A stretch of DNA of 64,000 nt, from NCBI RefSeq assembly GCF_000374565.1, contig NZ_KB894696.1, forward strand, positions 62,001 through 126,000, given 5' to 3'. The notes beneath the pieces are model-generated. The model searched no databases. It saw only the letters and a list, made by a program, of their open reading frames with translations, and was not told where the DNA came from. This DNA comes from Siminovitchia fordii DSM 16014 = CIP 108821. Lineage in GTDB: Bacteria > Bacillota > Bacilli > Bacillales > Bacillaceae_C. Below, one piece after another: positions 15,841-59,475 of the stretch. A program made the position numbers and the translations under genes. The first letter of the stretch is position 1; each line of letters begins with the position of its first letter.

Positions 15841-16004
15841 GGGTTATGGGTAACACTATAACAAGAGCAGCTTCTGGAGAGACCGCGGAAAACGCGGCGC
15901 CGAAGGATTCACAATCTCAGGCAAAAGGACAGAAGAGTAACTTACGGAAGTTTTTGTATGTTATTCTACTATCTTTGAGATTGGAGCAAATCCAATCTTT
16001 TTTT
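15841..16004 (+). ncRNA. single-aptamer glycine riboswitch with terminator
   Basis: The sequence carries the glycine aptamer core: P1 CTTCTG (15871-15876) with CAGAAG (15930-15935), GGAGAGACC, the P3 hairpin CCGCG-GAAAA-CGCGG (15883-15897), then GCGCCGAAGGA and TCTCAGGCAAAAGGACAG. Only one aptamer is present. A short hairpin GTTAT/ATAAC (15843-15862) before it resembles the ghost aptamer that supports singlet switches. The expression platform ends in a clean terminator: AGATTGGA (15978-15985) with TCCAATCT (15991-15998) and a T run to 16004. Glycine binding would decide read-through into the ACT/UPF0210 genes; by analogy with gcvT it probably permits it. Confidence 0.9.
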
Positions 16005-29478: not shown

Positions 29479-29537
29479 TGTAAGCGCTTCAAATAGGGAA
29501 TTATGAGGATGACGTTTCCTCTTTTTTCAAGTATAAT
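29479..29537 (+). promoter_or_regulatory. cre-like site and promoter of the HprK-like gene
   Basis: TGTAAGCGCTTCAA (29479-29492) matches the CcpA catabolite-responsive element at 13 of 14 positions. TATAAT lies at 29532-29537 with a weak -35 (ATGACG) 17 bases upstream. The cre-like site therefore sits just upstream of the -35, a position more often linked with activation than with road-block repression. Confidence 0.6.
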
Positions 29538-29577
29538 CCTGAATCATAGGGTATTCAGATATGGAGAGTGCATCAAT

Positions 29578-30492
29578 GTGAAAACGATAACAGTTAAAGA
29601 CTTGATCAATAGATTTTCTTTGGAGGTTTTGGCAGGGGAGGATCACCTGGACCGAAAAATTACAACAAATAGAGCACACCGTCCAGGCTTGGAGTTTGTG
29701 GGCTATTTCGACTTTTTCCCTACTGAACTTGTGCAAGTGCTCGGAGTAAAAGAGCTCACTTTTTTAAAAAGGCTAAGCGATGAGGAGCAGAAGTTGCGGA
29801 TAGGGAACATCGTGAATTATCACCCTCCATGCTTCATCATCACCGCACAGCAGGAAAGCCTGGGCTATTTGACGGAATACTGTGTTCAGGAAGGGATTCC
29901 CTTGCTTCGTACGGATGATGATCCGACATCGGAATTCATCAGGAAGCTGGATGCCTACTTGTTAAAGGCGTTGGCTCCGGAAATGGCTATCCACGGTGTT
30001 TGTGTCAATGTTTCGGGCATCGGGGTTCTGCTTCGGGGTAAATCGGGCATTGGAAAAAGCGAGACTGCCCATACATTAATACGCAGGGGGCATCGGCTTG
30101 TAGCAGATGATATTGTCGCATTGAAAAAACTAGGACCACAGACACTCCTAGGCACGCACGACAATCATACGAGAGAGTTGCTCGCCTTAAGAAGTATCGG
30201 TCTTGTCAATGTAGTGCGCCTGTATGGCAGGGAGGCGTTTCAGGACCAGACAAGGATCGTCCTGGATATTGAGCTGACAAAATGGGAGGAGGACTCCCTG
30301 AACAATGAATTGGAGCTAGAGCCCCAGTTCACCGACTACATGGGGGTCAAAATTCCCCATATTGAAATCCAGCTCCAGCCAGGCCGCGATGTAGCGGGCC
30401 TCATTGAAGCAGCTGCCAACAACTGGTATCTCCAACGTGAGGGATACAGCGCAGCAGAAGAATTCTCAAAACGGCTGGGAATCGATCATTAA
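29578..30492 (+). CDS. HPr kinase/phosphorylase, divergent paralog
   Basis: A 304-residue enzyme of normal length. The N-terminal domain (RPGLEFVGYFDFFP) precedes the P-loop GKSGIGKSETAH, the LVADDIV block and the signature ALRSIGLVNVVRLYGREAF. HprK phosphorylates or dephosphorylates Ser46 of HPr and Crh in carbon catabolite control. The sequence differs strongly from B. subtilis HprK and the gene is not next to lgt, the usual place, so it may be a second copy. GTG at 29578 follows GGAGAG at 29563-29568. A cre-like site upstream suggests CcpA feedback. Confidence 0.85.
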   Translation: MKTITVKDLINRFSLEVLAGEDHLDRKITTNRAHRPGLEFVGYFDFFPTELVQVLGVKELTFLKRLSDEEQKLRIGNIVNYHPPCFIITAQQESLGYLTEYCVQEGIPLLRTDDDPTSEFIRKLDAYLLKALAPEMAIHGVCVNVSGIGVLLRGKSGIGKSETAHTLIRRGHRLVADDIVALKKLGPQTLLGTHDNHTRELLALRSIGLVNVVRLYGREAFQDQTRIVLDIELTKWEEDSLNNELELEPQFTDYMGVKIPHIEIQLQPGRDVAGLIEAAANNWYLQREGYSAAEEFSKRLGIDH

Positions 30493-38230: not shown

Positions 38231-38378
38231 TGTAAACAAAAATGTATACATGTAAACAAAATAAGATGATTTGTACACGATAAACGTATACATGTTTACA
38301 AAGTAGTACACATAGCGTTATATCAACATGTGTACATATAAGGTAAACATGTGTACAAGTAAACGAATAATGTTTACA
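38231..38378 (+). repeat. parC-like array of phased iterons
   Basis: Motifs of the form TGTNNACA recur at about two-turn spacing: TGTAAACA at 38231 and 38251, TGTACAC at 38272, TGTTTACA at 38293, TGTACA at 38331 and 38352, and TGTTTACA at 38371, with ACACAT near 38309 filling the middle. The longer word ACATGTGTACA occurs twice, 21 bases apart (38326 and 38347), and TGTAAACAAAA twice, 20 bases apart. Such an array just before a parM-like gene is the usual form of a plasmid centromere bound by ParR, which also represses the promoter. Confidence 0.75.
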
Positions 38379-38401
38379 AAATGTCTGGGGTGAAAGTGTC
38401 A

Positions 38402-38430
38402 TTGACCTGAATAAGAAATTCAGGTAATCT
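38402..38430 (+). promoter_or_regulatory. parM promoter with operator in the spacer
   Basis: TTGACC (38402-38407) and TAATCT (38425-38430) are 17 bases apart. CCTGAAT-AAGAA-ATTCAGG (38406-38424) is a perfect inverted repeat that fills the spacer, so a repressor there would block RNA polymerase. Confidence 0.65.
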
Positions 38431-38492
38431 TTAATCATACTTATAGAAATTTCCAAGTGGCAGTTTCGCAAAAGAAAGGATGATAGTCATAT

Positions 38493-39668
38493 ATGGAAAA
38501 AACAAGACTTGCTGCAATTGATGTTGGAAATGATTCCTTAAAAGGGATTTTCGGTGAGATGGATTATGAGATTAATATTCCTAATATCGTAGCGATAGAT
38601 GTGGAGGATCGTCCAGTCATCGGATTGGAAGAACTGGACAACCAAGAGCCGTTAGACGGGTTACATATACGTTTACATTCCCCTTCTTTGCAGGAAAACG
38701 GTGCTGTTTACCGTGTAGGCCATTTGGCGACCAGGAGCGGAAATGCGACAGAATTGGATCCGGGAAGCAGCAAATCGGAAGAAGACCAAACGCTGGTCAT
38801 GATGTTCACAGCGCTGGCTCTTGATGCTGTTCGTGACGAGAACAAGAAGGTTTTCAAGCAGAGCAATAACGTTGTCGAAGCAACTTATACTTTGGGGACA
38901 GGACTGCCTTTAAGAGAAGTAAAAGAAGGAAAAGATGTAGGTTACCGCTCAAAATTGTTAGGTTCTGTGCATCAGGTTGAGTTTTTGGTAACTCCAAAAT
39001 ATCAAGGAATCAAGGTGAATATTAAATTTGAAGAAGTGAAAGTTTATCCGGAAGGTTTTGCGGCTTTCATCAATCTGGTCATGGATAATGATTTGAAAAT
39101 TATCAACAAGGAACTGATTGATAAAAGAATCATTATCCAGGATATCGGTGGATTATCAACAGATATTGCGGTGATTAAGAATAGAAAAGTAGATGATGAC
39201 CGCGCTCAGGGCTTCAATCTTGGAGTGTCCGAGTCCCTTGATGCCATTCGAGAGGAAATCCGTTCAAAATATGGCGTTGAACTCGACAGCCGAAGGGATG
39301 TAGTAGAGATCATCACGAAAAAGAATGATAGAAACCATATTATGGTCAAAGGAAGTCGGACAAGTGTCCATGAGATCGTCGACCGGATTCTCCTCGACCT
39401 CGCTAAAAAGCAATATCGCCACTTGAGAAATGTTTGGCAAAGAAACTCCCAAACAGAAATCGCCTACTTTATCGGCGGAGGCTCGATCGTTTTGAAGGAT
39501 TATTTGAAAGCATTGAACAATAATTTGGACGGATACAATATTGACTTTTTTGAAGATGAAAAAGAGAGTGTCTGGATGATGGCAAATGCATACTATAAGT
39601 TGGTCGCCGACTTTGCCAAAAAGAATCAAAAAGAGGCAAAAGAAGAGAAAAAAGCGGTTAAAAATTAA
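38493..39668 (+). CDS. ParM/StbA-family actin-like ATPase
   Basis: A 391-residue cytosolic protein of the actin/Hsp70 fold. The nucleotide motifs are clear: phosphate-1 AIDVGNDSLKG, phosphate-2 IIIQDIGGLSTDIAVI and adenosine YFIGGGSIVLKDYL. Size and motif spacing match ParM-type filaments that push apart plasmid copies. AAAGGATGA lies before the ATG. It is followed nine bases later by a ParR-like gene and preceded by a centromere-like array, giving the order parC-parM-parR. The tail is a Lys/Glu-rich helix. No other plasmid genes are nearby. Confidence 0.88.
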   Translation: MEKTRLAAIDVGNDSLKGIFGEMDYEINIPNIVAIDVEDRPVIGLEELDNQEPLDGLHIRLHSPSLQENGAVYRVGHLATRSGNATELDPGSSKSEEDQTLVMMFTALALDAVRDENKKVFKQSNNVVEATYTLGTGLPLREVKEGKDVGYRSKLLGSVHQVEFLVTPKYQGIKVNIKFEEVKVYPEGFAAFINLVMDNDLKIINKELIDKRIIIQDIGGLSTDIAVIKNRKVDDDRAQGFNLGVSESLDAIREEIRSKYGVELDSRRDVVEIITKKNDRNHIMVKGSRTSVHEIVDRILLDLAKKQYRHLRNVWQRNSQTEIAYFIGGGSIVLKDYLKALNNNLDGYNIDFFEDEKESVWMMANAYYKLVADFAKKNQKEAKEEKKAVKN

Positions 39669-39677
39669 TAGGGTGAT

Positions 39678-40256
39678 ATGATGAAGGAAACGGGGATGAA
39701 GAGGGGGCAGCCAATCACATTCAGGATCCCTTCCGATACGCCTGACCATATATTAAAGCAACTGCAAAGGCTAAAGGAAACAGAGCGGAGGAATTTCTCA
39801 AGCAAAATTGCTTCGATTGTAATGGCAGGAGTAAGCGAATCATTGACCAAGCAAAGGGAAACTCTGACCATTCCGCTGCCTAGGGGTTTGAGCAAAGAAC
39901 AGCGCGACTGGCTAAAACACGAACATTCGGAAGCTTTGCTGGGAAACATTGTTTACCAATTATTGTCTGATCCGGTTAGGGCTGTTTCAATCCTGGCATC
40001 ACTTAATAGCAATTCCCTGGAGATTGACGAAGCTCTGTACTTGCAGGAGGAAGCCGCATCCCTAGAAGAAGACCATCTTGAGCCGCAACCTTCTGAGGAA
40101 AATGAACTCACAGACAGTAGACGCCAATCTGATATAGATGATTTAGATAATCTTGATTGGAGTCAAATCAACATTGAGGCAGATCCACAGGGAACGGAAG
40201 AAGCCGAATTGGAAGATGATCCGTTGGCGGATTTTCTGGCACAGATGAATAAATAA
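39678..40256 (+). CDS. ParR-like DNA-binding adaptor
   Basis: A 192-residue protein. The N-terminal 50 residues (GQPITFRIPSDTPDHILKQL, then RRNFSSKIASIVMAGV) read as a ribbon-helix-helix DNA-binding domain, as in plasmid ParR. The second half is a long acidic, probably unstructured tail ending in a short hydrophobic helix (DDPLADFLAQM), the place where ParR proteins contact the ParM filament end. AGGGTGAT precedes the ATG at 39678 (a second ATG follows directly). A terminator closes the two-gene unit. The assignment rests on context and layout more than on motif identity. Confidence 0.7.
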   Translation: MMKETGMKRGQPITFRIPSDTPDHILKQLQRLKETERRNFSSKIASIVMAGVSESLTKQRETLTIPLPRGLSKEQRDWLKHEHSEALLGNIVYQLLSDPVRAVSILASLNSNSLEIDEALYLQEEAASLEEDHLEPQPSEENELTDSRRQSDIDDLDNLDWSQINIEADPQGTEEAELEDDPLADFLAQMNK

Positions 40257-40262
40257 TAGTTA

Positions 40263-40298
40263 AAACAAGGGGACATGCATTCATCCCCTTGTTTTTCT
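40263..40298 (+). terminator. terminator of the parM-parR unit
   Basis: AAACAAGGGGA (40263-40273) pairs with TCCCCTTGTTT (40284-40294), then TTCTTTTT. Confidence 0.88.
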
Positions 40299-59300: not shown

Positions 59301-59475
59301 AAAAAATGCCTCTCGCACAGAGAGGCATGGATATACACAAAAGTACTCACGCACTCTCTTATTTTTCAAAATACAAAGTATTTTGCAGGATTTAGCACCT
59401 GTTCTTGTTTGGAACAAACAAGAATGGTTGCCGGGTTTCTCAGGGCCAGTCCCTCCACCGCTCTTAATAAGAGAT
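59301..59475 (-). ncRNA. SAM-I (S-box) riboswitch with terminator
   Basis: On the minus strand the leader reads CTCTTATTAAGAG (59461-59473), GGTGGAGGGACTGGCC, GAAACCCGGCAACC, AGGTGCTAAATCCTGC and closes P1 with ATAAGAG near 59355. This is the SAM-I aptamer. The terminator ATGCCTCTC/GAGAGGCAT (59306-59328) with a U run at 59306-59301 follows. High S-adenosylmethionine should stop transcription of the methionine importer. Confidence 0.96.

Follow-up and report, generated by a model that had tools for sequence, protein, structure and literature searches.

The 64,000-nucleotide stretch of Siminovitchia fordii DSM 16014 = CIP 108821 analyzed here (contig NZ_KB894696.1, positions 62,001 to 126,000; referred to as the window in the following) carries at positions 38231-40298 a ParMRC-type partition cassette. 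As judged from the sequences of the cassette and its relatives, this is probably a native chromosomal system (cParMRC) whose predicted centromere lies near oriC and which would act on the origin region as an auxiliary beside the chromosomal ParABS system. A more explicit version of this proposal holds that in many Bacillaceae and members of neighboring families ParM pushes apart or anchors sister origins via a single centromere zone positioned 30-280 kb to the left of oriC, thereby providing a second segregation engine beside ParABS; we would give it about an even chance. The functions of the cassette, i.e., filament formation, DNA binding and an effect on origins, we infer. That ParMs can be chromosomally encoded is already known, as the accessible part of the relevant article describes (PMC12270681); new in our analysis is the linkage of cParMRC to the origin.

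Read from left to right, the cassette consists of a repeat array, parM, a ParR-like gene and a terminator-like hairpin. The actin-like ATPase cParM (391 amino acids) is encoded on the plus strand at 38493-39668, as judged from its open reading frame (ORF), family matches, motifs and relatives. An alignment of 38 ParM sequences, the window's included, shows no variation in its three nucleotide motifs, which comprise the residues D10-G12-N13-K17, D217-G219-G220-T223-D224 and G328-G329-G330; we take them to represent the phosphate-1, phosphate-2 and adenosine motifs. The Pfam models ALP_N (41.3 bits; cut-off 26.3) and Alp7A_like_C (115 bits; cut-off 22) were matched above their thresholds, and the PHROG family phrog_691 ('partition protein') was matched too; the C-terminal model PF21523 reached 21.7 bits, under its cut-off of 27.4, and the NCBIfam ParM equivalog PRK13917 reached 30.5 bits, far under its cut-off of 417. 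An assignment to MreB was rejected because no bacterial MreB family came up in the Pfam and NCBIfam searches, only the archaeal MreB-like_C (48 bits). A Foldseek search with a poor structural model of the protein returned ParMs as its top matches and MreB structures from rank 20 downward, and only marginal matches were obtained when solved structures were searched by sequence (Dh-cParM1, E = 0.34). The comparison with curated families suggested in an earlier note on this DNA has consequently come out in favor of a partition protein: sequence evidence confirms the placement of the window ATPase in the ParM/Alp7A branch, and with its three motifs it has the makings of the ParM/Alp-type actin-fold ATPase that characterizes type II partition systems.

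Nine bases downstream of parM, the plus strand encodes the ParR-like adaptor (192 amino acids; ORF at 39678-40256), for which the next codon, 39681, is an alternative start since the second residue, M2, is an invariant Met. The protein comprises an N-terminal ribbon-helix-helix-like region (residues ~9-52, by sequence), a second helical domain (~73-124), a variable acidic linker and a conserved C-terminal tail, FLAQMNK. No curated family in Pfam, NCBIfam or PHROG matched it, and a sequence search of solved structures returned nothing meaningful. Its first ~100 residues are 28-42% identical to hypothetical proteins in 22 Bacillales plasmid records, and such proteins are encoded next to ParM genes in each of the seven plasmids that we looked at. 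In every one of the 110 loci examined, the genes for ParM and ParR lie side by side; 30 of these loci come in addition to the 80 named ones and partly stem from the same genomes. The loci compared in what follows are the best 80 of 424 relatives, 344 loci lying outside this sample; together with the window, they provide 81 chromosomal ParRs, all of which end in FLxxMN plus one residue, this residue completing MNK in 76.

Upstream of parM lies the predicted parC-like centromere (38231-38378; 12 GTNNAC sites by its repeat sequence; strand not assigned). Its 12 GT[AGT][TAC]AC sites, at 38232-38377, are spaced by 8, 12, 13, 21 or 24 bp and are of the types TGTATACA, TGTAAACA and TGTGTACA, some of them forming abutting dyads, e.g., GTATACATGTAAAC. 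As sites recur at 8, 12 and 20 bp, the unit corresponds to about two helical turns. The segment 38201-38400 holds all 12 sites, whereas 2000 dinucleotide shuffles gave 1.8 on average and never more than 7. Arrays are likewise present in the relatives: the best 200-bp segment upstream of parM contains 4-15 sites in the 80 named loci (at least eight in 74, at least five in 79, and four in L056). Elsewhere in these loci, 14 of 24,324 segments reach five sites, and all 14 belong to second arrays, seen in five loci on the upstream side of parM at a distance of 1.3-3.9 kb. Second arrays were noted at L087:4218-4353, L059:6473-6608 and L072:6652-6747, also in L044 and L048, and at G010:C1:3268899-3268996; no second parM accompanies them in the fetched stretches of L059, L072 and L087. 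Judged by its sequence, the cassette thus possesses the repeat-array centromere beside the operon that is expected of a type II system.

Of the seven places at which the window's genome carries the dyad GTDHACAWGTDHAC, four belong to the cassette, and three are isolated. In this genome and ten near-complete relatives, dyads cluster only within ~2 kb of parM, with G010 holding a second cluster 1.9 kb upstream of the gene. A distribution of ParR sites across the entire chromosome in the manner of parS is therefore unsupported for the dyad pattern in these 11 genomes. An extra dyad was seen in G042 (C1:3264739-3264752) ~0.8 kb past the 3' end of parM; in this relative, array sites may hence flank the operon on both sides.

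An intrinsic terminator-like hairpin with a T-rich tail (AAAACAAGGGGA...TCCCCTTGTTTT; 40262-40298, plus strand), detected by a hairpin scan, closes the operon. Its stem of 14 pairs spans 40262-40295, and the minus-strand entry reported by the scan is the same stem read there. With the motif-bearing ATPase, the ParR-like ORF nine bases on, the upstream array and the hairpin all recovered, the description of this region as a complete ParMRC-type cassette, first given in the earlier note, was confirmed at the level of sequence.

The proposed tie to the origin comes from the relatives. A close parM (at least 74% identity) is present in 55 of 100 related genomes, the window's own included, and in 24 of 398 genomes drawn evenly from the class (E <= 1e-100); as eight genomes are in both sets, this amounts to 71 genomes, and dnaA was found in every one of them. 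The two genes share a contig in 41 genomes from 26 genera, and in all 41 parM lies to the left of dnaA (with dnaA drawn left to right) and is transcribed away from it. They are 30.5-280 kb apart (median, 86 kb). Fifteen of these genomes have main contigs of 3.3-5.5 Mb, of which the distance between the two genes takes up no more than 6.6%. G021 and G094 carry parM and a ParB-family gene on one contig in matching order and orientation. The synteny comparison that the earlier note had proposed hence places the cassette on the same arm in every same-contig relative, with varying neighbors, and the note's suggestion of a system able to move or position the chromosome gains weight from this linkage; that the cassette indeed acts there, we infer. 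Among the matches listed from the open-licence literature, there was no report of an origin-linked ParM in Bacillaceae (by title and start of abstract), nor one of the DnaA-like divergence, the single-zone array or the tail signature. Two side observations concern the genes used here. G084 carries, on a chromosome that also harbors a member of the clade, a second, distant ParM-like gene (C1:2539965-2540951; 24% identity), located on the other side of dnaA at a distance of ~0.67 Mb; for other ParM-like genes on chromosomes, a link to the origin should not be assumed. G014 yielded 27 weak partial DnaA-family matches besides dnaA, perhaps transposon-associated AAA ATPases.

In the window's own genome, dnaA resides on contig C13 and parM on contig C12 (126,722 bp), and we compared both contigs with the 280-kb origin-left stretch of G030. 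Thirteen of the 98 ORFs on C12 (crude calls) are reciprocal best matches in this stretch, and eight of them follow one another as expected in a single chain, which ends in parM and parR and includes an HPr-kinase-like gene, two oxidase subunits and an Fnr-like gene; the rest are out of order or probably paralogues. From C13, 36 of 95 ORFs are also reciprocal best matches, most of them close to dnaA. Should C12 and C13 abut, parM would be at least ~210 kb away from dnaA. The gene order common to C12 and the origin-left stretch of G030 makes it unlikely that the window is located on a plasmid contig; taken together with the neighboring genes, it points to C12 being chromosomal, in keeping with the setting assumed in the earlier note and with the main chromosomal contigs on which the relatives' cassettes are found. 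The genes flanking the cassette are ordinary ones, i.e., a Crp/Fnr-type regulator, a peptidase C26, a C45 acyltransferase and an oligopeptide importer. Our Pfam search took in 31 window ORFs, two from the cassette and 29 flanking it (~21.5-56.4 kb), and revealed no replication, mobilization or integrase family above cut-off and no prophage genes among the 29 flanking ORFs, two of which had no match at all at E 1e-5; across these ORFs, the impression of an ordinary neighborhood recorded earlier has held up. Further away, the window contains a glycine riboswitch (15864-15942, plus strand) and an S-adenosylmethionine (SAM) riboswitch (59356-59473, minus strand).

The cassette is old, mostly vertically inherited and under strong purifying selection. 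Across 28 genomes, the mean pairwise distance is 0.174 for ParM and 0.179 for DnaA, and the two sets of distances are correlated (Mantel r 0.66, a value reached by none of 2000 permutations). This comparison used 28 of 30 genomes, G010 being dropped because a motif filter missed its ParM, and G009 because its dnaA is broken by the start of the record. For each of the two proteins, 10 pairs from within the window's genus were compared, several of them with dS near 1; the ratio of non-synonymous to synonymous substitution rates (dN/dS) ranges over 0.011-0.045 in the case of ParM and 0.042-0.175 in that of ParR. The frames of both genes are open in all fetched copies. L038 and L044, deposited publicly under the names Paenibacillus bovis DE0126 and Pseudomonas sp. 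ISL-84, have ParMs that group with those of Bacillaceae; the two genomes are possibly mislabeled.

The gene neighborhood varies and does not account for the position of the cassette. In 79 of the 80 loci, the immediate neighbors represent 53 families on the upstream and 49 on the downstream side, numbers derived from crude ORFs of at least 100 amino acids and perhaps inflated by spurious ones. Some neighbors are shared between genera, among them a gene of peptidase type (by eye, peptidase T), which was seen in 14 of the 80 loci, and one resembling HPr kinase, seen in 7. This pattern fits one old place whose surroundings have turned over. An HPr-kinase family gene is also found in the window at 29503-30492, 8 kb upstream of the cassette, and a relative of it is situated directly upstream of the cassette in L038, L081 and L101; it may be an old neighbor. 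G017, a parM-less congener of G009, is collinear with it on both sides of the cassette position, the anchors being 10.8 kb apart in G009 and 3.1 kb in G017. In the 240 kb fetched from G017, neither parM nor parR was detected (tblastn; one 17-residue chance match), nor any segment with more than three array sites; in 160 kb from G046, a parM-less genome of another genus, both genes were likewise not found, and one segment had four sites. Cassette genes and array were gained and lost together.

These data bear on the idea, raised in the earlier note, that the cassette is a relic of an integrated plasmid, taken here as one that decays and has no present role. Kinship with plasmid ParM and ParR (best identities, ~44% and 42%) would suit such an origin, but the low dN/dS of ParM with its DnaA-like divergence, the open frames, the retention of array and ParR tail across genera, the joint absence of the whole unit in G017, the lack of plasmid genes among the flanking ORFs searched and the single recurring chromosomal zone contradict it, and we consider it highly improbable. 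The same holds for a recent plasmid integrant, which we rejected in view of the 29 flanking ORFs devoid of Rep, mobilization and integrase genes, the absence of close plasmid relatives, the DnaA-like divergence and the purifying selection.

A number of observations count against the origin-directed role that we favor. As to the proteins, the AlphaFold2 model of ParM, consulted for the closed beta-barrel subdomain typical of this family, is poor (predicted local distance difference test, pLDDT, 50.7; alignment of 38 rows), that of ParR is weak (pLDDT 64.4; predicted template modeling score 0.27) and found no fold match with Foldseek, and the ribbon-helix-helix assignment of the ParR-like N-terminus is an interpretation of its sequence alone. 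As to the array, our motif pattern is a rough proxy for the sites; a single dyad place was seen at the cassettes of G009 and G014, and in 8 of 10 genomes the dyad pattern matches less often overall than a reversed-pattern control does, which leaves only the clustering of dyads as informative. As to the linkage, the 41 same-contig genomes are kin and not independent trials, four of them (G009, G039, G069, G267) show the left-hand position only if the record is circular, and the separate contigs of parM and dnaA in 28 of the 71 genomes, the window's own among them, are uninformative. As to distribution and descent, a close parM is absent from 45 of the 100 related genomes, including G005 of the window's genus, and from 374 of the 398 drawn from the class; the ParM and DnaA trees share 10 of 25 splits (28 genomes), leaving room for some transfer; and ParB-family genes are present in all 100 relatives and do not separate genomes with parM from those without. 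Because so many genomes lack a close copy and all 100 relatives have ParB-family genes, we regard the cassette as an auxiliary system of a part of the group.

Vertical descent alone could also keep the cassette close to the origin without a role there. In that case, ParM-type filaments might serve another chromosomal task, for instance in cell shape or the envelope, with self-regulation through the array, and the position would be historical. Published chromosomal ParMs do form filaments, and the available part of their description leaves their role unassigned (PMC12270681); the position of the cassette is compatible with plain vertical descent as well. The retention of a multi-site array together with the genes and the lack of dyad clusters beyond ~2 kb of parM in 11 genomes speak against such a task, for which we see only a slim chance.

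The nearest mobile counterparts were sought among 72,556 plasmid records, of which 56 had a match and seven loci were taken for comparison. No plasmid ParM of at least 60% identity was found in these records, the best reaching ~44%. In gene order, the seven Bacillales plasmids (e.g., pBM69 of Bacillus methanolicus MGA3), which encode ParM/StbA and a short ParR, resemble the cassette; their ParMs are 40-44% identical to the window ParM, and in at least six of the seven the N-terminal half of ParR is 34-42% identical to the window protein. Their ParRs, however, are 134-151 amino acids long and carry an acidic tail instead of FLxxMNK in all seven cases, and their upstream regions contain few repeats, which are GCATAC-type in four of seven. 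Since tails and upstream repeats differ, chromosomal and plasmid systems look insulated from each other. In a tree of the window ParM, 49 of the 80 named chromosomal ParMs, the seven plasmid ParMs and one ParM from a viral collection, a branch with 100/100 support parts the chromosomal from the plasmid proteins, several of which sit on long branches.

This separation is blurred by a phage-like element in the IMG/VR viral collection, where close ParM relatives occur on two contigs; these records (86 and 116 kb) are alike in the stretch compared. The ParM of the element (L112:4880-6134; 73% identity) nests inside the chromosomal clade, where it adjoins that of Neobacillus jeddahensis, a weakly supported placement on a long branch, and is preceded by a short GTATAC/GCATAC array. 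The longer record also encodes a ParR whose tail, FFAVMNK, is similar; it is located next to an integrase (L120:13908-14414 and L120:14990-15634), ~23 kb from ParM if the record is circular. The genes of the element also include an endolysin and a replication-relaxation protein. ParM and ParR of this element were likely captured from a host chromosome. Its clade-nested ParM, short array and similar tail lend some substance to the view that the cassette is a guard against extrachromosomal elements, in which array, ParR and ParM hamper or out-compete plasmids or phage-plasmids with the same centromere through incompatibility and the origin position is inherited; its patchy presence would suit such an accessory role. 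We nevertheless deem this view unlikely: most of the seven plasmid systems, with their deviating tails and partly GCATAC-type upstream regions, would hardly be recognized, and close relatives on mobile elements are rare.

Alternatively, the cassette might be dedicated to sporulation, anchoring the origin region in the forespore or pulling it there, a task comparable to that of RacA. Linkage to the origin suits forespore capture, and Spo0A is encoded in all 55 parM-carrying genomes; it is, however, encoded in 99 of the 100 relatives overall, the exception (G045) also lacking parM, and being equally common in parM-less relatives it does not discriminate between genomes with and without the cassette. 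Nor do promoters lend support, as the best sigma-A-like pairs in 80 regions upstream of parM were not above shuffles, in a scan in which sporulation promoters were not searched for. We hold this alternative to be rather unlikely. A TTGACC-17-TAATCT pair at 38402-38430 was picked by eye; the scan did not return it, and we do not claim a promoter.

Returning to cParMRC as an auxiliary of origin segregation, its working can be pictured along the lines of plasmid systems. In plasmid ParMRC, the array becomes covered with ParR, whose tails are thereby offered to the end of the ParM filament; capture by the ParR tail was reportedly worked out with plasmid R1. In the cassette studied here, cParR dimers would load onto the array just upstream of parM, as the repeats and the kinship with ParR suggest, and the conserved tail FLxxMNK would capture the end of a cParM filament, a step to which the conservation of the tail points. 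ATP-driven growth or shrinkage of the filament may then push apart or anchor the two newly copied origin-left regions; by analogy, the cargo would be this region, which is copied soon after initiation. Pushing the sisters apart and holding them are both conceivable. cParMRC would work in addition to the ParB systems and not in their place, and array-bound ParR may regulate the operon as well.

An origin-linked ParMRC system that diverges at a DnaA-like rate, has one centromere zone and occurs in many genera provides a concrete test case, with, e.g., Heyndrickxia coagulans and Cytobacillus as hosts that are tractable and harmless. If the cassette moves origins, an actin-driven engine would be added to bacterial chromosome segregation; if it does not, a widespread and strongly selected filament system with another chromosomal task would have come to light.

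Among known systems, the chromosome-encoded ParMs described in 2025 in J Biol Chem (Dh-cParM1, Cb-cParM and Bt-cParM), filaments of two of which were shown, are the obvious reference (PMC12270681). Like the window cassette, published cParMR systems combine a chromosomal ParM with an adjacent ParR and are conserved within some genera; Bt-cParM, with the Bacillus tropicus proteins WP_001968526.1 and WP_000025611.1 in its lineage, is found on several Bacillus chromosomes (PMC12270681). The cassette likewise is chromosomal and neither plasmid nor prophage, as evident from the main contigs of its relatives, the shared gene order and the flanking ORFs. It differs in that the published solved cParMs are only marginally similar to the window ParM (Bt-cParM being compared by its description only), in that no conserved cparC was identified in the published Clostridium strains according to the available text, and in its origin linkage, of which the accessible text has no report; in the main text, 'dnaA' and 'origin of replication' do not appear, and 'oriC' does once, in a passage outside the accessible part (PMC12270681). 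Alp7A of pLS20, BtParM and pSK41 ParM resemble the window ParM through Alp7A_like_C and the Foldseek matches 4xe7, 3js6 and 5ec0 obtained with a weak model, and did not come up when solved structures were searched by sequence at E 1; all three are plasmid systems (PMC12270681). AlpAC of the Corynebacterium prophage CGP3 is, like the cassette, a chromosome-encoded pair of an actin-like protein and a DNA-binding adaptor; in the accessible parts of its descriptions, it is prophage-encoded and reported to serve viral DNA, whereas the cassette has no prophage genes among the flanking ORFs searched (PMC4446434, PMC5539076). The likeness to chromosomal ParABS (Soj-Spo0J-parS) consists in an origin-proximal adaptor, and wherever a ParB-family gene and dnaA were listed for the same contig, the former is located to the left of the latter (e.g., G009, G014 and G016). 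ParABS relies on a Walker-type ATPase and several parS sites, whereas the cassette pairs an actin-like ATPase with one array zone, and ParB-family genes are universal among the 100 relatives, as opposed to the close cParM found in 55 of them.

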